This document shows, piece after piece, positions 937-12,252 of a stretch of DNA of 64,000 nucleotides; position 1 is the stretch's first letter; every line of letters starts with the position of its first letter. The DNA lies in assembly GCA_022652485.1 (NCBI GenBank), contig JALCRK010000007.1, positions 1 through 64,000 on the forward strand, read 5' to 3'. The DNA comes from Sphingobium sp. (lineage in GTDB: Bacteria; Pseudomonadota; Alphaproteobacteria; Sphingomonadales; Sphingomonadaceae). A model generated the notes under the pieces. The model was not told where the DNA came from. It was given only the letters and a program-made list of their open reading frames with translations, and ran no database searches. The translations under genes were made by a program, and so were the position numbers.

Positions 937-1596
937 TCATTGGATGGTCGAGGCAAATCGCCATTCGTCTTCCTGGCCCAGGGCTGCGGCGTATTGTCGC
1001 TCGGCGAAACGCCAATTGGCTAAGTTGTCCCACCAGGTAGCCAGCCATTTGGCGCGGTCCTGGCGATAGTCGATGTAATAGGCGTGTTCCCAGACATCGC
1101 ATGTCAGCAGTGCAACAGTCCCGTCAGCTGTGATCGGCGTGGCCGCATCATGTGTCGACAGAACCTCGAGCGCACCGCTCCTGGCCACGAGCCAGACCCA
1201 GCCGGATCCGAAATGTCCGACGCCTTCGGAAATAAACTGCTCCCGCAGATTGTTCAGGCTGCCGAATCTGCCCAGACACGCTTGGGCAAGCTGGCCATCT
1301 GGTACCGAGCTTCGCGCCGACATGCTCTCCCAGAAGAAGGCGTGGTTCCACGTCTGGGCGGCGTTATTGAACAGGGCAGTCTGGTTTGACTCGCTCGCCC
1401 TTCGAAGCACACCTTCAAGGCTTACCCCAGCCAGATCCTGCCCGGCCAGGAGGCGGTTCAGGTTCTCGACGTATTTGGCGTGATGGCGCCCGTGATGAAC
1501 TTTCAATGTCTCCTCACCGAGATGAGGCTCAAGGTCCTGCAGGCCGTAAGGCAGTGCGGGAAGTTCAAAAGCTGTATGGACGGTTTGGTCAGACAT
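937..1596 (-). CDS. sodB: superoxide dismutase (Fe/Mn type)
   Basis: FELPALPYGLQDLEPHL...HHGRHHAKYVENLN...QTWNHAFFWESM; DVWEHAYYIDYRQDRAKWL. Confidence 0.95.
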   Translation of the reverse strand: MSDQTVHTAFELPALPYGLQDLEPHLGEETLKVHHGRHHAKYVENLNRLLAGQDLAGVSLEGVLRRASESNQTALFNNAAQTWNHAFFWESMSARSSVPDGQLAQACLGRFGSLNNLREQFISEGVGHFGSGWVWLVARSGALEVLSTHDAATPITADGTVALLTCDVWEHAYYIDYRQDRAKWLATWWDNLANWRFAERQYAAALGQEDEWRFASTIQ

Positions 1597-2020
1597 TGAA
1601 TTGCTCCTGCGGTAAATCTTGATGTGGCGCTCGTGGTTCGTGTGCGATCACGCGGGCGCGCATCGCAGCCAGGCACAGAGCGATGGGAAATATGTCGTGC
1701 GTCCCGCGCGCCTCTCCGTCTGGTCCGCATACGACGACATCGTCGCAATCGTGTTCGATCCAGCAGCCAGCGGGCACCAGCGTCGCCGCAGCCTTCCAGA
1801 TGCGGCTGTAGCGCAAGGCTCGAACCCGTTCGCCATTGCTACCTCTCCAGATGCCCGGCTCCAGTTCCTCCATCTCCGCCAGAGACGGAAAAGCAGCCGC
1901 GCAAATGGTTGCGTCCAGACCGCGCGAGGCGGCGGTGGCGAGCATGCATGCCTTGATGGCGCGCGACATCAGGGCCACTTCACGGCGATCAGGGTCGAGC
2001 TGTGGCAGACGCTCGGCCAT
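1589..2020 (-). CDS. hypothetical protein (start set at internal Met, overlapping the carbonic anhydrase stop)
   Basis: ORF MAERLPQLDPDRREVALMSRAIKACMLATAA... co-directional with neighbours. Confidence 0.55.
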   Translation of the reverse strand: MAERLPQLDPDRREVALMSRAIKACMLATAASRGLDATICAAAFPSLAEMEELEPGIWRGSNGERVRALRYSRIWKAAATLVPAGCWIEHDCDDVVVCGPDGEARGTHDIFPIALCLAAMRARVIAHEPRAPHQDLPQEQFNV

Positions 2021-2694
2021 CAGCCCGATCCTCTTTGGGAGGCCCTGTTCACCCCAAGTGCCGCGGAGTGTTCGACGGGGGCCTCGACCACTTCCAGCAG
2101 CCCATCGGCAATCGAATAGACCCAACCGTGGAGGTTGATCTTGGTACCGCTTGCCCAAGCCTTACGGATCATCGGGTTCTCCGCGAGAAGGTCGACTTGG
2201 GCCGATACATTCCGCCGACACAATTCGTCGGGCATGAGCGACTGCCCCCCGAGTTCGGCCTGGAGGCGAGCGTGCAGGGCGCCTAGTGGTTCGAGCCATC
2301 TGGAAATGGCGCCCGGTACTCCACCATTCATTGCGGCATGTACCCCGCCGCACCCGTAGTGGCCGACGACTATGACGTGCTCGACCTTGAGGACGTCGAC
2401 CGCGAACTGCAGCGCGGCAAGGAAGTTCGGGTCATCTGGTTTGGTCAGATTGGCCACGTTGCGGTGCACGAACATTTCGCCCGGATCGAGATCGACGATT
2501 TCGGTCGCGGGAACACGGCTGTCGGAACAGCCAATCCAGAAATAGCGCGGCTTCTGCTGATCGACGAGACGCTGAAAGAAGCCGGGATCGATATCTGTCT
2601 TCCCCTCGGCCCATTTCGCGTTCCGCTCGAACAGCCTTGCCAGTTGGCCGTCCTCGGCGGAAGCGGGATGCTCCGGGGCGGACGCCGCGGTCAT
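2020..2694 (-). CDS. beta-class carbonic anhydrase
   Basis: WIGCSDSRVPATEIVDLDPGEMFVHRNVANL ... VIVVGHYGCGGVHAAM. Confidence 0.95.
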   Translation of the reverse strand: MTAASAPEHPASAEDGQLARLFERNAKWAEGKTDIDPGFFQRLVDQQKPRYFWIGCSDSRVPATEIVDLDPGEMFVHRNVANLTKPDDPNFLAALQFAVDVLKVEHVIVVGHYGCGGVHAAMNGGVPGAISRWLEPLGALHARLQAELGGQSLMPDELCRRNVSAQVDLLAENPMIRKAWASGTKINLHGWVYSIADGLLEVVEAPVEHSAALGVNRASQRGSG

Positions 2695-3332
2695 GGTCGA
2701 CCCGCTTGGAGATCTACAATTCGCAGATAGGGCTTGAGCGTCCGGTATCCTTGGGGGAATTGCCGCGTGGCTTCGTCGTCGGAGAGCTTCGGCGAAATGA
2801 CCACCGGCTCGCCGGGCGTCCAGTTGACCGGGGTGGCGATGCTGCGTGCGTCGGTCAACTGCAGGCTGTCGATCGCGCGCAGGATCTCCGCAAAATTGCG
2901 GCCGGTGCTGGGCGGATAGGTGAGAATCAGGCGCACTTTTTTCGCCGGATCAATCACGAACACGGAACGCACGGTAACTGCAGGATCGCAGTCGGGGTGG
3001 ATCATGTCGTAAAGCGCGGCGACCCGGCCATCGGGATCAGCGATCATCGGAAAGTCGAGACGAGCGCCTTGGGTTTCCTCGATGTCTTTTTCCCATTTGT
3101 GGTGCGCCTCCACCGGGTCCACCGACAGACCGATCGGCTTGACGTTGCGCTTGTCCCATTCGGGTCGCAACTTTGCCACTTCGCCAAGCTCCGTCGTGCA
3201 CACGGGCGTGAAGTTCTTCGGGTGACTGAAAAGCAGCCCCCAACTGGACCCCAGCCATTCATGGAAGCGGATAGGCCCATGGGTGCTGTTCTGTTCGAAA
3301 TCGGGGGCAACCTGCCCGAGCTGGATGGTCAT
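2691..3332 (-). CDS. 1-Cys peroxiredoxin (Prx6-like)
   Basis: LFSHPKNFTPVCTTELGEVAKL; YPPSTGRNFAEILRAIDSLQL. Confidence 0.93.
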   Translation of the reverse strand: MTIQLGQVAPDFEQNSTHGPIRFHEWLGSSWGLLFSHPKNFTPVCTTELGEVAKLRPEWDKRNVKPIGLSVDPVEAHHKWEKDIEETQGARLDFPMIADPDGRVAALYDMIHPDCDPAVTVRSVFVIDPAKKVRLILTYPPSTGRNFAEILRAIDSLQLTDARSIATPVNWTPGEPVVISPKLSDDEATRQFPQGYRTLKPYLRIVDLQAGRP

Positions 3333-3385
3333 ACAGGCTCCTGTCTAAATGATTGCGGAGATGTGGAACCGCTAAATGCAGCAAG

Positions 3386-3416
3386 CAAACGAATGATATT
3401 GTTGTTTGAAAGCAAT
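3386..3416. promoter_or_regulatory. candidate LysR-type site: CAAACGAATGATATTG plus ATTG-N11-CAAT dyad
   Basis: ATTG (3398-3401)-N11-CAAT (3413-3416); the first 16 nt recur inverted upstream of cysJ. Confidence 0.55.
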
Positions 3417-3580
3417 AAATATGCTTGAATGACCGCTCTCCGATTCGAGGAGAAGCGCATCTAGTCCGGACTGCCTGTGCATCTCGCAGCCAAGCGCTCC
3501 ACGGGCTTTTGCTTCTCGTCGCTGGCTAATACATCCAAGATGATGAGTTGTATGGCAATTCAAATAAGGAATATTGCGGT

Positions 3581-4429
3581 ATGGACATCGGAATCGCGCG
3601 GACGTTCCTGGAAGTGGTCAAGACCGGAAGCTTCGTCCGCGCTGCGGAAAACCTGAACCTCACTCAAACTGCAGTCAGCGCCCGCATCCGCGTGCTGGAG
3701 GATCAACTCGACCGACCGGTGTTCATCCGCAACAAGGCCGGCGCTCGGTTGACACCGGCTGGCGAGCAGTTCCAGCGTTTCGCCACCACTCTCGTGCAGG
3801 TCTGGGCCCGGGCGCAGCGGGCGGTGGCCTTGCCTCCGGGGCGCGAAACGGTGGTCACCATCGGCGCGGAACTCAGTCTATGGAGCCCCCTGCTCAGGCA
3901 CTGGTTGCTGTGGATGCGGCGCGAGTGTCCGGAGATTGCTGTCAGCACGCAGATCGACGCTTCGGAACGCCTGATGGAACAGGTTCAGGATGGATCGCTC
4001 GACGTTGCCGTGATCTATGCCGCGCCGAGCCGGCCCGGTGTGATTGCCGAACTCCTGTTCGAGGAAAAGCTGGTGCTGGCCCGGACAACGCCGACCAGCG
4101 CTCCGCTTGCGCCCGAGGATCACGTGCAGATCGACTGGGGCGAGGAATTTGCCGCCAGCTACCAGGCGGCCTTTCCCGACCTGCCCAACGCCGTGGTCTC
4201 GATCAGTTATGGTCCTCTGGCGCTCGAATACATCCTCGCGACCGGGGGGAGCGGTTATTTCCGCAAAGGCTTCATCCGTTCCTATCTGGAAGAGGGGCGA
4301 CTGGCACTAGTGCCGGGTAGTCCGGAATTTTCCTATTCGGCCTATGTCGTCCATTCGACCAAGGCCGATGCGGGCGTGATGGATCGGATACGCGCGGGTC
4401 TGCGCGCAGCGGCGGAGATTGCGACATGA
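3581..4429 (+). CDS. LysR-family transcriptional regulator
   Basis: N-terminal HTH IARTFLEVVKTGSFVRAAENLNLTQTAVSARIRVLEDQLD. Confidence 0.93.
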   Translation: MDIGIARTFLEVVKTGSFVRAAENLNLTQTAVSARIRVLEDQLDRPVFIRNKAGARLTPAGEQFQRFATTLVQVWARAQRAVALPPGRETVVTIGAELSLWSPLLRHWLLWMRRECPEIAVSTQIDASERLMEQVQDGSLDVAVIYAAPSRPGVIAELLFEEKLVLARTTPTSAPLAPEDHVQIDWGEEFAASYQAAFPDLPNAVVSISYGPLALEYILATGGSGYFRKGFIRSYLEEGRLALVPGSPEFSYSAYVVHSTKADAGVMDRIRAGLRAAAEIAT

Positions 4430-4905
4430 CCAACCAGCCCTCCTCACCTCCCTGTGGCGCCGCCGAAGCGGACGACGTCTACATTGGCTATGCCGGTCGC
4501 AACGAATTGCTGTTGGTGCTCAACGAGTTGCTTGAAGCCGAACGTGCCGGGGCGAAGGTTGCACTCGCCAGCACCAAGGCGGTGGCGGACGACTATGCCG
4601 CCCTGATGCGGCAAGTCCGGGATGATGAAGCGCACTGGTGCGAAATGCTCGATCGGCAGATTCGCCGCCTTGGCGGAACGCCGTCCGCCGCGACCGGAGC
4701 GTTCCGCGAAAAAGCCCTCGCCATCGCCGATCCGCTGGAGCGTCTGGCGTTTCTCAATCGCGGACAGGGCTGGGTTGTGCGCAAGCTGGTAGAATTGCTG
4801 CCGAGGGTGCGCGACGATGCACTTCATGCCGATTTGAATGCGATGGTCGCCGGGCACCGGACGAACATCGATATCGCCAACGCCTTCCACAGCTCGGGCA
4901 GTTGA
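4426..4905 (+). CDS. ferritin-like / DUF6306-type protein
   Basis: ELLLVLNELLEAERAGAKVA...RDDEAHWCEMLDRQIRRLGGTPS. Confidence 0.6.
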   Translation: MTNQPSSPPCGAAEADDVYIGYAGRNELLLVLNELLEAERAGAKVALASTKAVADDYAALMRQVRDDEAHWCEMLDRQIRRLGGTPSAATGAFREKALAIADPLERLAFLNRGQGWVVRKLVELLPRVRDDALHADLNAMVAGHRTNIDIANAFHSSGS

Positions 4906-4930
4906 GTGCAATTTTTGCGTGTTGAATAAC

Positions 4931-4946
4931 CAATAACATTCGTTTG
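4931..4946 (-). promoter_or_regulatory. second copy of the candidate LysR site (CAAACGAATGTTATTG on minus strand)
   Basis: 15/16 identical to 3386-3401, ~104 bp upstream of cysJ. Confidence 0.55.
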
Positions 4947-5049
4947 TGTTATTTCATCAACTGCCGGACATGTTCTCCGACACGGCAACGACCCGACAGC
5001 GCCCCAATTCCGGCGATGCATCTGGAGGCCTTTTCGAGGAACGTAACAG

Positions 5050-6840
5050 ATGGCGGCGAATGTTGTGCCGGGGTCAGCCTTGGCACCGTCACAATGGCAA
5101 TTGGTGCAAGATCTGGGCAAGGGCCTCGTGCCCGCGCAGGCCCTGTGGCTCAGCGGATATTTTGCCGGGCTGGCTCAAGGCTTTCCTGCTGGCCAGCCTG
5201 CCGCAACGCCTGCGACAGGGGCGCGGCGCCTGACCATTCTCTATGGCAGCGAAACCGGCAACGCGGCCGAACTCGCCTGCGCACTGGAGACGACGGCCCG
5301 GGACAGAGGGATGGCCGCAACGGTGGCGGACATGGCCGATTACAAGATGCGGCAATTGGCGCAAGAAGAAGACCTGCTGATCGTGGTCAGCACCTATGGC
5401 GAAGGTGATCCGCCGCAACCGGCAACCGGCTTTTTCGAATTCGTTGAAGGGCGCAAGGCGCCCCGGCTGGAAAACCTGCGCTTTGCCGTCCTGGCTCTCG
5501 GCGATTCCACCTACGAATACTTCTGCGAAGCCGGCAAGCGGCTCGATCGCCGGCTCGAGGAACTCGGCGCCAAACGTCTGCTTGAGAGGGTCGATTGCGA
5601 TATCGACTATGACGATGCAGCTGCGGCGTGGACGACAGCTGTCGTTGAACACCTCGCCAGTGAAGCGGCCGCCACGCCCGTATCGGTAGCTGCAGCGACA
5701 GGCGAAACCGTGCCGGCGACAGTCCACGACAAGCGCAATCCGTTTCCGGCCGCGATCATCGAGAACATCGCCATCGTTGGCCGGGGGTCGAGCAAGGAAA
5801 CCCGCCATGTCGAATTCTCGCTGGCGGGATCGGGCCTGACCTATCAGCCGGGCGATGCGCTGGGAATCGCGGCCTCGAACGATCCAGGGGTGGTGGCGGA
5901 CCTGCTCGATGCACTCGCGCTTTCGCCCGACGCCGCGTTTGAAATCAAAGGGCGGCAGGCCACCCTTGGCGAGGCGCTGACTCACCGCTTCGAGATCACG
6001 CTCACAACGCCCCGGTTCCTCGACTACTGGGCCATGTTGAGCGACAGTAGCGCCTTGAAGCAGTTGCGCGAAGAGGACCGTTCGGGCGAGCGCTCAGTCT
6101 TCCTGCGCACGCACCACATCGTCGATATCGTCCGCCGCTTTCCGGTGGCAGGGGTGATGCCGCAAAGCTTCGTTTCGGCGCTGCGCCCGTTGCAGCCCCG
6201 GCTCTATTCAATCGCATCGAGCCTGGCCGCCGCGCCGGACGAGGCGCACCTTACGGTCGCGCCGGTGCGCTATGCGCTGCACGGGGAGGCGCGCAGCGGG
6301 GTGGCATCCGGCCTGCTGGCGGACCGCGCCGCACCTGACGCGGTGCTGCCGGTCTATGTTCAGGCCAACCCCCATTTCCGTCTTCCGGACGGCGATGTGC
6401 CCATCGTGATGATCGGCGCGGGAACTGGCGTCGCGCCTTACCGCGCTTTCATGCAGGAGCGCGAGGCGCACGGCGCCGGCGGCAAGAACTGGCTGTTCTT
6501 TGGCGAGCGCAATTTTCGCACCGACTTCCTTTACCAAAGCGAATGGCAGGCGTGGCTGAAGGACGGAACGCTGGGCCGGATGGACGTCGCGTTTTCGCGC
6601 GACCGGAGTGACAAGGTCTACGTCCAGCATCGCATGAAGGAACAGGCGCGCGACCTGTTTGCCTGGCTGGAGGACGGTGCGCACGTCTATGTCTGCGGCG
6701 ATGCTGCCCATCTTGCGCCAGATGTTCACGCGGCGCTGATCGACGTCGTGGCGTGTGAGGCGCACATCGGGCGCGAGGCGGCCGAAGATTATATCCGTTC
6801 GCTTCAGGCCGACCACCGCTACCAGCGCGATGTCTATTGA
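5050..6840 (+). CDS. cysJ: sulfite reductase (NADPH) flavoprotein alpha subunit
   Basis: Flavodoxin domain LTILYGSETGNAAELA, FAD domain RLYSIASS, NADPH domain MIGAGTGVAPYRAFMQER. Confidence 0.92.
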   Translation: MAANVVPGSALAPSQWQLVQDLGKGLVPAQALWLSGYFAGLAQGFPAGQPAATPATGARRLTILYGSETGNAAELACALETTARDRGMAATVADMADYKMRQLAQEEDLLIVVSTYGEGDPPQPATGFFEFVEGRKAPRLENLRFAVLALGDSTYEYFCEAGKRLDRRLEELGAKRLLERVDCDIDYDDAAAAWTTAVVEHLASEAAATPVSVAAATGETVPATVHDKRNPFPAAIIENIAIVGRGSSKETRHVEFSLAGSGLTYQPGDALGIAASNDPGVVADLLDALALSPDAAFEIKGRQATLGEALTHRFEITLTTPRFLDYWAMLSDSSALKQLREEDRSGERSVFLRTHHIVDIVRRFPVAGVMPQSFVSALRPLQPRLYSIASSLAAAPDEAHLTVAPVRYALHGEARSGVASGLLADRAAPDAVLPVYVQANPHFRLPDGDVPIVMIGAGTGVAPYRAFMQEREAHGAGGKNWLFFGERNFRTDFLYQSEWQAWLKDGTLGRMDVAFSRDRSDKVYVQHRMKEQARDLFAWLEDGAHVYVCGDAAHLAPDVHAALIDVVACEAHIGREAAEDYIRSLQADHRYQRDVY

Positions 6841-6850
6841 GGGGCCGAGC

Positions 6851-8563
6851 ATGACCGAGACCATCGACCGCAGCCACGACATTTCGCAAGCGCTCGACCG
6901 GCTAAGCGCCGACGAGCGGATGAAGGATGCCAGCGACTACTTGCGCGGGACCATCGCCGAAGGCCTGCTCGACCGCATCACCGGGGCCGTCCCATCGGCG
7001 GATGACGTGAAGCTGATGAAGTTTCACGGCATCTACCAGCAGGACGACCGGGACTTGCGCGACGAGCGCCGCCGCCAGAAGCTGGAACCGGCCTACCAGT
7101 TCATGATCCGGGTGCGCCTGCCGGGCGGGGTCTGCACCCCGGCGCAGTGGCTGAAGCTGGACGAGCTGGCCCGCGCGCATGGCGGAGAGACGCTGCGCAT
7201 CACTACCCGCCAGACATTCCAGTTCCACTGGGTGCTGAAGGACAGCTTGCGCCCGATTATCCAGGGCTTGCACGAAACCCTGCTCGACACGATCGCCGCT
7301 TGCGGCGACGACAGCCGCGGCGTGATGTCCACGGTCGATCCGCAGGCATCGCGCTTTCATGCTGAAGTAGCCGCCCTGGCCAAGCGGGTTAGCGATCATG
7401 TGATCCCGAAGACGCGGGCATATCACGAAATCTGGTACGGTGATGAACGCGTTGCCTCGTCCGCGCCGGAAGAGCTGTTCTATGGCCGGACCTACATGCC
7501 GCGAAAGTTCAAGATCGGCTTCGCTCTGCCGCCGTCGAACGACATCGACGTCTATGCGCAGGATCTGGGGTTCATCGCGATCGGCGGCGAAGGGGGGCTC
7601 GAAGGCTTCAACGTAGTAATCGGCGGGGGCATGGGACGGACCGACCAGGCACCCGAAACATATCCGCGTCTGGCGAGCCTGATCGGCTTTGTGCCTGAAG
7701 ACCGCGTGATCGCCTGCGCCGACGCAGTGATGACCGTGCAGCGTGACTATGGCGACCGCAAGGACCGGCAGCGCGCCCGGTTCAAGTACACGATCGACGA
7801 CAAGGGGCTGGACTGGGTCAAGGCCGAGATCGAGCGCGTGATGGGCGCATCCTTCGAAGAAGCGCGACGGTTCTCGTTCGCCTCGAACGGCGATACGTTT
7901 GGCTGGCAGGAAACCCCCGACGGCCGGTTCCACCGCACGATATTCGTCGAGAACGGCCGGCTCGATACGCGGCTGCTCGATGCCTTTCGTGATGTCGCCC
8001 GCATTCATCGAGGCACCTTCCGCATGACTCCCAACCAGAACGTCATCATCGCCGGGGTGTGGGCGGAGGATCGCGCGGCAATCGAAGCGCTGCTGGCCGA
8101 GCACTGGCCCGACGGGAGCGAGGCGTCCACGCTTCGGCGCAATGCCATTGCCTGTGTCGCCCTGCCGACTTGCGGGCTGGCCATGGCGGAGAGCGAGCGT
8201 TACCTTCCTTCGCTACTCGGCCGGATCGAGGCGATCCTTGCGGCACACGGACTGTCGGAAGAACCGATCACCATCCGCATGAGCGGTTGCCCTAACGGCT
8301 GTTCGCGCCCCTACATCGCCGAAATCGGGCTGACCGGGCGGGCTCCCGGCAAGTACAATCTCTATCTCGGCGGTGGATTTCACGGGGACCGGCTCAATCG
8401 GATGATCCGCGAGAACGTGGGCGAGGCGGTGATCCTCGAGGTGCTGGACGAAGTGCTGGGGCGCTATGCCCGCGAACGCGAACCGGGTGAACGGCTAGGC
8501 GATTTCACAATCCGCGCCGGTATTGTGCGCGAGGTCACAGAAGGACACCTGTTCAATGACTGA
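6851..8563 (+). CDS. cysI: sulfite reductase (NADPH) hemoprotein beta subunit
   Basis: CVALPTCGLAMAESERYLP ... RMSGCPNGCSRPYIAEIGLTGRAPGKYNLYLGG (siroheme/4Fe4S motif). Confidence 0.95.
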   Translation: MTETIDRSHDISQALDRLSADERMKDASDYLRGTIAEGLLDRITGAVPSADDVKLMKFHGIYQQDDRDLRDERRRQKLEPAYQFMIRVRLPGGVCTPAQWLKLDELARAHGGETLRITTRQTFQFHWVLKDSLRPIIQGLHETLLDTIAACGDDSRGVMSTVDPQASRFHAEVAALAKRVSDHVIPKTRAYHEIWYGDERVASSAPEELFYGRTYMPRKFKIGFALPPSNDIDVYAQDLGFIAIGGEGGLEGFNVVIGGGMGRTDQAPETYPRLASLIGFVPEDRVIACADAVMTVQRDYGDRKDRQRARFKYTIDDKGLDWVKAEIERVMGASFEEARRFSFASNGDTFGWQETPDGRFHRTIFVENGRLDTRLLDAFRDVARIHRGTFRMTPNQNVIIAGVWAEDRAAIEALLAEHWPDGSEASTLRRNAIACVALPTCGLAMAESERYLPSLLGRIEAILAAHGLSEEPITIRMSGCPNGCSRPYIAEIGLTGRAPGKYNLYLGGGFHGDRLNRMIRENVGEAVILEVLDEVLGRYAREREPGERLGDFTIRAGIVREVTEGHLFND

Positions 8564-9725
8564 CAACAACAGTCGACCGCGCCCTGAAACCATCGCCGCC
8601 GCGCATGGCGTGGCCAGCGATGCCGCGTTCGGAGCGGTATCTCCGCCGCTGTATTTTTCCACGACCTACGAATTTGCCGGATACGATCAGCCGCGCGCCT
8701 ACGACTATGGTCGCGCTGGCAACCCCACGCGCGACCTTCTGGCCGATGCGATCGCCCGGCTGGAGGGCGGGGCAGGGGCGGTCATTACGTCCAGCGGAAT
8801 GGCAGCGATCGACCTTCTCGTCAGCCGGCTTTCGGCGGGCAACGGAGTGCTGGCTCCGCACGATTGCTATGGCGGGACCATCCGTCTGCTCAAGGCCCGC
8901 GCCGAACGGGGACAGATCGCGCTACGGTTGGTCGACCAGGGAGATACCGATGCCGTTGCAGAGGCGCTGCGCGACCGGCCCGGGCTGGTGTTGGTCGAGA
9001 CGCCCAGCAACCCGCTGATGCGGGTGGTTGATATCGCGGCGTTGGCGTCCGCTGCGCACGAGGTGGGTGCCAAGGTGGCCGTCGATAACACCTTCCTCTC
9101 CCCAGTAATCCAGCAGCCGCTGACGCAGGGTGCCGACTACGTCGTCCATTCCACAACCAAGTACCTCAACGGGCATTCCGACGTGATCGGCGGCGCGGTT
9201 GTCGCCGCCGACCCGGTTGAAGTGGAGGCGCTGCGCCACTGGGGCAACGTTGTCGGCAGCACCGGCGCGCCGTTCGATGCCTGGCTGACCTTGCGCGGCC
9301 TGCGCACGTTGTTTCCCCGCATGGAACGCCAGCAGATTAACGCGATGGCCGTCGCGCAGTATCTGGAGCATCACTCGGCGGTGTCGATCGTGCACTACCC
9401 TGGTTTGTCCTCTCATCCCGGCCATGCCATCGCCAGCCGCCAGCAGCGCGGCTTCGGCGCAATGCTGAGCTTCGAACTGGCGGGAGGGACTGAGGCGGTG
9501 AAGCGGTTCATCGCCGCCGTGGACTGTTTTACCCTCGCGGAATCGCTGGGCGGGGTGGAAAGCCTGGTGGTCCACCCGGCGACGATGACTCACGCCGACA
9601 TGGGCGTCGAGGCCCGGGCGCTTGCCGGGATCAGCGACAGCCTTCTGCGCCTCTCGGTCGGCATCGAGGCGGAGCAGGATCTGATCGCCGGGCTGGAACG
9701 GGGGCTCGACGCATGCGCGGTTTGA
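8556..9725 (+). CDS. PLP-dependent trans-sulfuration enzyme (cystathionine gamma-synthase / O-succinylhomoserine sulfhydrylase family)
   Basis: AYDYGRAGNPTRDLL ... VVHSTTKYLNGHSDVIGG (PLP lysine). Confidence 0.9.
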   Translation: MTDNNSRPRPETIAAAHGVASDAAFGAVSPPLYFSTTYEFAGYDQPRAYDYGRAGNPTRDLLADAIARLEGGAGAVITSSGMAAIDLLVSRLSAGNGVLAPHDCYGGTIRLLKARAERGQIALRLVDQGDTDAVAEALRDRPGLVLVETPSNPLMRVVDIAALASAAHEVGAKVAVDNTFLSPVIQQPLTQGADYVVHSTTKYLNGHSDVIGGAVVAADPVEVEALRHWGNVVGSTGAPFDAWLTLRGLRTLFPRMERQQINAMAVAQYLEHHSAVSIVHYPGLSSHPGHAIASRQQRGFGAMLSFELAGGTEAVKRFIAAVDCFTLAESLGGVESLVVHPATMTHADMGVEARALAGISDSLLRLSVGIEAEQDLIAGLERGLDACAV

Positions 9726-10761: not shown

Positions 10762-11325
10762 ATGAGTCGCGAACAGCTCTCCTACGGCCTTGGTCGCCTT
10801 GCCGCTCTCGCTCGCCAGCGGGATTGGGTTACGGGTGAAGCAGCCGGACTGACGCCCACCCAGGGCGATACCTTGCGCTTGCTGGCGGATCGTCCGGCAG
10901 GGCTTCGGCTTGGCGAACTGGCCGCCCACCTCAGTGTGCGGCCTTCCACCGCCAGTGACGTGGTCGCGGTGCTGGTCGCCAAGGAACTGGTCCGGCGCCT
11001 GCCTGATCCCGACAATGCCCGCGCCGTGCGCGTGGTGTTGACCGATGCAGGCCGCGCGATGCTGGGACAGATGCCCGATGGCTTCGATGCCGTCGTCGAT
11101 ATGTTGTCCGACGCGGATGCGGGCACGCTGCACGGCATCGTCATCAGCACTATCGTCCGCTTGCAGCAGGCCGGTCGGATCGCACCTCAGCGTCTGTGCG
11201 TGACTTGCCGCTATTTTGTGTCCGAAGCTGACGGGGCAGGCGGACATTTTTGCAGTTTGGTCAATCAGCCGCTCCAGCCCGCCGACCTCAGGGTGAACTG
11301 CCCGGAGCACGAAGCGACGGGCTGA
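10762..11325 (+). CDS. MarR-family regulator with C-terminal four-Cys motif (CX2CX14CX15C)
   Basis: wHTH LRLGELAAHLSVRPSTASDVVAVLVAKELVRR; tail LCVTCRYFVSEADGAGGHFCSLVNQPLQPADLRVNCPEH. Confidence 0.85.
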   Translation: MSREQLSYGLGRLAALARQRDWVTGEAAGLTPTQGDTLRLLADRPAGLRLGELAAHLSVRPSTASDVVAVLVAKELVRRLPDPDNARAVRVVLTDAGRAMLGQMPDGFDAVVDMLSDADAGTLHGIVISTIVRLQQAGRIAPQRLCVTCRYFVSEADGAGGHFCSLVNQPLQPADLRVNCPEHEATG

Positions 11326-11389
11326 TGCTGACCATTCCCTCGGGGTGAGGGCACGCGTCGGGCGCAGCGTCTTTTGCGCCCTAGAATAT

Positions 11390-11400
11390 TAGGAGTCCTA
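11390..11400. promoter_or_regulatory. second copy of the palindromic operator, TAGGAGTCCTA
   Basis: Two bp upstream of the glutaredoxin-like start codon. Confidence 0.65.
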
Positions 11401-11402
11401 TC

Positions 11403-11648
11403 ATGAAGCCCAAGGCAACCTTCTATCACGCCGGATGCAGCGTGTGCGTATCGGTTGAACAGGCGCTGGGCCAGGCGCTCGATCCGGCGCGTTATGATGT
11501 CGAGATCGTGGATTTCAACACGGCCCCGGACCGGATTGCCGAGGCGGAAGCTGCCGGGGTTCAGTCGGTCCCAGCCTATGTGATCGACGGCCAGCCCTTC
11601 CACATCAACTTCGGTGCGTCGATGGCGGCAGTGAAGGGCGTGGGCTGA
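11403..11648 (+). CDS. glutaredoxin/thioredoxin-fold small protein
   Basis: ATFYHAGCSVCVSVEQAL ... AGVQSVPAYVIDGQPFHINFG. Confidence 0.8.
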   Translation: MKPKATFYHAGCSVCVSVEQALGQALDPARYDVEIVDFNTAPDRIAEAEAAGVQSVPAYVIDGQPFHINFGASMAAVKGVG

Positions 11649-11665
11649 TCGCACCTGACCAGACC

Positions 11666-11700
11666 GGGCGGGCTTTCGTGCTGACGGAGCCCGCCCCTTT
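11666..11700 (+). terminator. hairpin between the glutaredoxin-like and redoxin genes
   Basis: GGGCGGGCT ... AGCCCGCCC 9-bp perfect stem followed by CTTT. Confidence 0.5.
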
Positions 11701-11715
11701 GAAGAGACACGACTG

Positions 11716-12252
11716 ATGCTCGATCAACTCGCCCCCGAATGGGTGACCAGCCAGTGGTTCAACAGCCCGCCGCTGACGCTTGCGGACTTGCGCGGCCGGA
11801 TTGTCGTGCTGGGCACGTTCCAGATGCTGTGCCCGGGCTGCGTCGCGAATGGCCTGCCGCAATTGCAGCGGGTGGAACAGACTTTCGCCCGAGAGGATGT
11901 CGCGGTCGTCGCCCTGCACACGGTGTTCGAGCATCACGCGGCGATGATGCCGGTAGCGCTCGAAGCGTTCCTCCACGAATACCGGATCGGGTTTCCTGTC
12001 GGCTTCGATGCCCATGACGATCCGGCTGGGATGCCGATCACCATGCAGCGCTACAACTTGCGCGGCACGCCGTCGCTGGTCCTGATCGACCGGCAGGGAC
12101 GCCTGCGGCACAGCAGTTTCGGGCACGAGCCGGATCTTGCGCTTGGCGCGCGGATCGCGATGCTGCTGGCCGAAGGCGCAGAGGTTGTGGCCAGCAGCGA
12201 TGGGCAGCAGCCGTATGGCGAGACCTGCCGGGCAGGAGGCGATTGCAGCTGA
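11716..12252 (+). CDS. redoxin / TlpA-like thioredoxin-fold protein
   Basis: GRIVVLGTFQMLCPGCVANGLPQLQRVEQTF ... YNLRGTPSLVLIDRQGRLR. Confidence 0.85.
   Translation: MLDQLAPEWVTSQWFNSPPLTLADLRGRIVVLGTFQMLCPGCVANGLPQLQRVEQTFAREDVAVVALHTVFEHHAAMMPVALEAFLHEYRIGFPVGFDAHDDPAGMPITMQRYNLRGTPSLVLIDRQGRLRHSSFGHEPDLALGARIAMLLAEGAEVVASSDGQQPYGETCRAGGDCS

Follow-up and report, generated by a model that had tools for sequence, protein, structure and literature searches.

The 64-kb stretch of Sphingobium DNA analysed here (the window) holds a gene for a LysR-type regulator between a leftward operon headed by a 1-Cys peroxiredoxin gene and a sulfite-reductase operon headed by cysJ, and near-identical 16-bp sequences precede both operons. 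This arrangement raises the question whether the two sequences are operators of the regulator encoded between them. Judged by sequence comparison, it is very likely that they are, and that the LysR protein would thereby control the peroxiredoxin and sulfite-reductase operons jointly, probably as an activator. The predicted regulation is of an ordinary kind and is well supported by comparison. The features of the locus are collected in Table 1.

Table 1. Genes and putative regulatory elements around the lysR gene (window coordinates; CGS, cystathionine gamma-synthase).
Feature	Position	Strand	Details
Fe/Mn superoxide dismutase	937..1596	-	PF00081 + PF02777; downstream, same strand
beta-Carbonic anhydrase	2020..2694	-	PF00484; overlaps peroxiredoxin gene
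1-Cys peroxiredoxin (Prx6/LsfA type)	2691..3332	-	PF00578 + PF10417 (AhpC-TSA 104 bits, 1-cysPrx_C 41.5 bits); first gene of leftward operon
Operator, peroxiredoxin-lysR intergenic region	3379..3423	+	Core 3386-3401; points against peroxiredoxin gene; 58.2 bits; genome-wide E = 3.2e-9
Probable decayed remnant of lysR-proximal operator	3540..3555	+	-3.9 bits; far edge 41 bp from lysR ATG
Claimed third copy of motif	3561..3576	+	Ribosome-binding region of lysR (AAGGA); aligns with AAGGA region of relatives, not with operator core
LysR-type regulator, 282 aa	3581..4429	+	PF00126 70 bits + PF03466 60 bits, both above cut-off
DUF6306 protein	4426..4905	+	PF19825; start overlaps lysR stop by 4 bp
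Operator upstream of cysJ	4909..4953	-	Core 4931-4946; points against cysJ; 44.7 bits; genome-wide E = 5.5e-5
cysJ, sulfite reductase flavoprotein	5050..6840	+	TIGR01931 739 bits, above cut-off
cysI, sulfite reductase hemoprotein	6851..8563	+	NF010029 771 bits, above cut-off
CGS	8553..9725	+	TIGR02080 602 bits, above cut-off; own operator in other loci

Genes of the locus and the paired motif

The NCBIfam model nearest to the LysR protein is HdfR, which gave 124.4 bits against an equivalog cut-off of 240; it is the best of 51 model matches, and no CysB model is found among the best 25 of these. The DUF6306 gene shares 4 bp with the end of lysR, and the two are therefore probably expressed as one transcript. 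The AlphaFold2 model of the DUF6306 protein (pLDDT 89) has a four-helix, ferritin-like fold, and its leading Foldseek matches in the PDB are ferritin- and Dps-like proteins, including PA4880 (E-values from 1.1e-3 to about 2e-2, probability 1.00). Residues E37, E39, E68, H134 and H144, which might serve in di-iron binding, are conserved in the alignment, and the protein is predicted from the model to be a ferritin-like four-helix bundle. The peroxiredoxin possesses both domains of the LsfA type, AhpC-TSA and 1-cysPrx_C. On each side of lysR, strand and spacing suggest that the genes form an operon. Downstream of the sulfur operon the window harbors a second redox cluster (10762-12252), which lacks the operator and consists of a gene for a MarR-type regulator followed by thioredoxin-like and AhpC/TSA-like genes.

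Both strong copies of the motif described in an earlier note on this DNA were recovered. The sequence CAAACGAATGATATTG is present at 3386-3401 on the forward strand, its first base being separated by 54 bp from the start codon of the peroxiredoxin gene (ATG at 3332, reverse strand), and CAAACGAATGTTATTG is present at 4931-4946 on the reverse strand, 104 bp before the cysJ ATG (5050) and within the 144-bp gap preceding this gene; the two are identical at 15 of 16 positions. Nowhere else in the assembly (3.06 Mb) is CAAACGAATGWTATTG matched exactly, and two further places match with 2 mismatches each. A 15/16 pair somewhere within 64 kb is by itself not remarkable, as would suit a chance repeat or the remnant of a mobile element. 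Between the intergenic regions 3333-3580 and 4906-5049, however, the best 16-mer match is 15, a value never reached in 300 dinucleotide shuffles of these regions, where the best matches were 11 to 14. Because of this maximum of 14/16 and of the conservation in relatives we accept the pair as real; conservation at fixed places across genera already refutes a chance or mobile-element origin, which we regard as extremely improbable.

The first copy had also been said to form a dyad with the classic geometry of a LysR box. The dyad itself is there (ATTG at 3398-3401, N11, CAAT at 3413-3416), but the description as classic needs correction, since the classic LysR geometry is T-N11-A (PMC5002191). 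In the TTG-N11-CAA dyad the inner T and A are 13 apart, that is T-N13-A, and the operator adjoins a divergent target. When the operator as a whole was examined as a simple palindrome no centre passed the threshold; the symmetry is confined to the inner TTG-N11-CAA dyad.

A 45-bp operator at fixed positions in relatives

A protein search with LysR yielded 49 loci with 47 homologues at 54-100% identity, mostly from sphingomonads but also from Hyphomonas, Dyella and bins labelled Parvibaculum. A recurring neighbourhood has the peroxiredoxin gene on one side, often together with those for carbonic anhydrase and superoxide dismutase, and the DUF6306 gene with cysJ/cysI or the CGS gene on the other. 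The operator occurs in 26 of 31 related peroxiredoxin promoters, with its far edge about 67-71 bp from the start, and in 9 of 10 cysJ loci, with its far edge 102-146 bp upstream of the start; over the relatives as a whole the distance to cysJ is 102-155 bp. In both groups, as in the several CGS promoters that also carry it, it points against the gene. The earlier note had named absence of the motif from orthologous loci as one observation that would speak against its proposal, and in the relatives the motif is present at fixed places. Since the same element stands before the unrelated promoters of cysJ, CGS, peroxiredoxin and a membrane gene, its recurrence is not the simple inheritance of one sequence. 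On the LysR tree the presence of the motif does not form one clade but involves 8 changes, and for this reason we do not treat it as one clean inheritance.

Some loci depart from this pattern. LysR homologues of 66-89% identity in L023, L043, L048, L053 and L057 (at about 2,300-4,800) adjoin a gene for a large membrane protein of about 680-780 amino acids, mostly without the operator, which suggests re-use of the regulator. In each of the loci L094 (from genome G018) and L042, lysR is present as a tandem pair, and an operator-like site of 29 bits is located at L055:5878-5893 on the reverse strand, 133 bp ahead of a gene for cytochrome oxidase subunit I.

The operator profile was trained on 46 sites, none of them from the window, and the doubtful weak CGS site of locus L050 was left out. 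A scan of the 64-kb window returned exactly two sites (58 and 45 bits). Behind them come a 4-bit match overlapping the first site and then values of at most -0.1; simulated windows reach 9.7. Over the whole genome, the two window sites alone fall below E = 0.6. The aligned sites contain about 22.5 bits in the 16-bp core, on average about 1.5 bits for each position, and about 18.6 bits in the next 36 bp, most flanking positions carrying little information. The consensus of the 45-bp operator is CAT-N2-A-R-CAAAYGAATRTTATTG-N4-TT-N5-CAA-N5-TTG. The CAA follows 11 bp after the core in 18 of 26 peroxiredoxin sites, 8 of 9 cysJ sites and 7 of 8 CGS sites; the cysJ site of the window is an exception with a spacing of 13 bp.

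Read in the direction of the gene, the operator is approximately CAAATATATTG-N11-CAATAAYATTCRTTTG, followed by a TTATG/TATGAT-like sequence which may be a -10 box. The core is oriented with its CAAA end towards the start codon and the CAA half on the far side, an arrangement expected of an activator that contacts RNA polymerase from a position immediately upstream of the promoter. It is less probable, though conceivable, that LysR binds but represses, or does both depending on a ligand, and that the signal is peroxide or sulfite instead of sulfur limitation: the element is so near the promoters that its occupation might block as well as activate, and the target genes are compatible with several signals. 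Against this, the element is placed consistently upstream of the promoter and always in one orientation to the gene, an arrangement that is typical of LysR-type activation, and the precedent from Pseudomonas is induction by sulfur starvation. We infer activation rather than repression, and a sulfur signal.

The lysR-proximal position

A third, weaker copy of the motif had been reported at the start of lysR, and from it the earlier note derived control of LysR over its own gene. The sequence CAAATAAGGAATATTG is literally present on the forward strand with 11 of 16 matches, yet it is not an operator: the operator profile gives it -7.8 bits, and 11/16 is the chance level, with a best match of 11 or 12 in 252 of 300 shuffles. 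The segment 3540-3555, probably a decayed operator, has the top forward-strand score in its stretch and lies at most 1 bp from the position of the strong site of relatives. In these, the lysR-proximal site is at -42 and oriented with lysR. It reaches at least 30 bits in 26 of 26 loci in which a gene for a small membrane protein was detected divergent from lysR; where the peroxiredoxin gene is directly divergent (gap < 300 bp) it does so in only 2 of 8 loci, in one of which the gap is 97 bp and the single site is shared. The window belongs to the latter class, and the divergent membrane-protein gene is missing.

The predicted membrane protein that goes with the lysR-proximal operator (MKPLGRFTPEP..., L021:4464-4847, with equivalents in 26 loci) is small and fast-evolving. 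The simplest reading is that the lysR-proximal site serves this divergent gene and has decayed in the window, where the gene is absent; perhaps it also represses lysR in the relatives. Self-control of LysR through a site at the lysR start is thus unsupported, because the real site of the relatives accompanies a divergent membrane-protein gene that is missing here; the third copy is no operator and the true lysR-proximal position is decayed in the window.

The operator and its probable regulator

Of 121 genomes of the family, 8 have this LysR, and 6 of these hold sites at E <= 0.01; of the 113 without it, 1 does (Fisher p = 5e-8, which overstates independence as the genomes are related). The two LysR-positive genomes without sites hold the most diverged orthologues (75-76%), and in LysR-positive family genomes no site is farther than about 12 kb from lysR. 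Matches to a strict pattern in the LysR-negative genomes G104, G110 and G117 failed the profile at E <= 0.01. In separately searched genomes the operator stands at the expected distance in all 6 peroxiredoxin promoters and all 4 cysJ promoters near LysR. This hold-out is not fully independent, as some of its genomes are close to training loci and the LysR proteins of G073 and L021 are identical. For homologues elsewhere in the same genome set, the operator was found in 0 of 13 peroxiredoxin promoters (LysR-negative genomes) and 0 of 4 cysJ promoters (one in a LysR-positive genome). Among 56 LysR rows, 11 have no strong site in the stretch covered, and several of these adjoin the gene for the large membrane protein.

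Extended to 301 genomes of the order, the search at E <= 0.001 gave sites in 7. Four of these have a site beside a LysR homologue: the genome studied here, G325, G267 (61% identity) and G278 (52%). In the other three, namely G176 and G188, which belong to another family, and G240, a short contig, the stretch examined shows no LysR, which is what one would see if another regulator bound the sites and LysR merely travelled with the island. We consider this quite improbable, as within the family the element is nearly confined to LysR-positive genomes and clustered near lysR, and the more diverged LysR homologues also have it alongside. Moreover, LysR is common to the loci, usually with DUF6306 and the peroxiredoxin, and the ferritin-like DUF6306 protein is, to our knowledge, not a known transcription regulator. 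The sites in G188 and G176 (L138 and L139) are operator-like, with 43-46 bits and no LysR homologue detected in 19.5 kb, and may reflect another factor or chance in those genomes.

Computation thus established the operator, its positions and its link to LysR. The proposal that the local LysR acts on the promoters of the peroxiredoxin gene and of cysJ is supported by the co-occurrence of motif and lysR, by the distance of at most about 12 kb for nearly all sites, and by their fixed positions. LysR would bind directly to the 45-bp element just upstream of the promoters of both the peroxiredoxin-carbonic anhydrase-superoxide dismutase operon and the cysJ-cysI-CGS operon. It would probably activate both in response to a shortage of sulfur or to the build-up of a sulfur metabolite, and the capacities for sulfite reduction and peroxide removal would be raised together.

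Comparison with known systems

The proposed link between sulfur and peroxide draws on gene content and on a precedent in Pseudomonas: at low sulfate its 1-Cys peroxiredoxin LsfA is induced (PMC4199769), together with genes for sulfur uptake and assimilation (PMC4199769, PMC12581299). Sulfur starvation of strain PAO1 raises LsfA, SodB (transcripts), Ohr and iron-storage proteins including PA4880; why it induces antioxidant enzymes is described as largely unexplored in Pseudomonas (PMC12581299). By analogy, the gene content of our locus fits a response to sulfur shortage that is coupled to oxidative stress, and the predicted ferritin-like partner DUF6306 would fit the iron-buffering idea of the same study (PMC12581299). 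In our locus, sulfur and antioxidant genes appear to be joined in a compact unit through a single regulator with a single, precisely defined operator, so that the link is testable with two promoters and one knockout. A function is thereby suggested for two families, an unnamed one of LysR type and the ferritin-like DUF6306 family; in the literature searched we found no description of either family or of a sulfur regulon under LysR control in sphingomonads. About evenly balanced, in our judgement, is the broader reading that the locus is a horizontally mobile, self-contained sulfur-redox switch, in which a non-CysB LysR with its own 45-bp operator code, carried on an island of patchy distribution in sphingomonads and a few other bacteria, couples sulfite reductase to peroxiredoxin, superoxide dismutase, carbonic anhydrase and a ferritin-like protein, and operators are lost with the loss of target genes.

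Similar to the CysB and Cbl regulons of enterobacteria and pseudomonads, the predicted system places assimilatory sulfite reductase and related sulfur genes under a LysR-type regulator. Whereas CysB works genome-wide, the regulon predicted here is local to one gene cluster, and its LysR is nearest to the HdfR model. In the LsfA system of Pseudomonas, CysB is the known regulator of many of the sulfur genes (PMC12581299), unlike the dedicated neighbouring LysR and distinct 45-bp operator predicted here. The locus also resembles the divergent pairs of GcvA, IlvY, MetR and OxyR, in which the regulator gene is divergent from its target and a long protected region of about 45 bp or more is found near the target promoter (PMC5002191), the counterpart here being the predicted 45-bp element. 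It differs from these pairs in its inner TTG-N11-CAA dyad, which is 2 bp wider than T-N11-A, and in the decay of the regulator-adjacent site.
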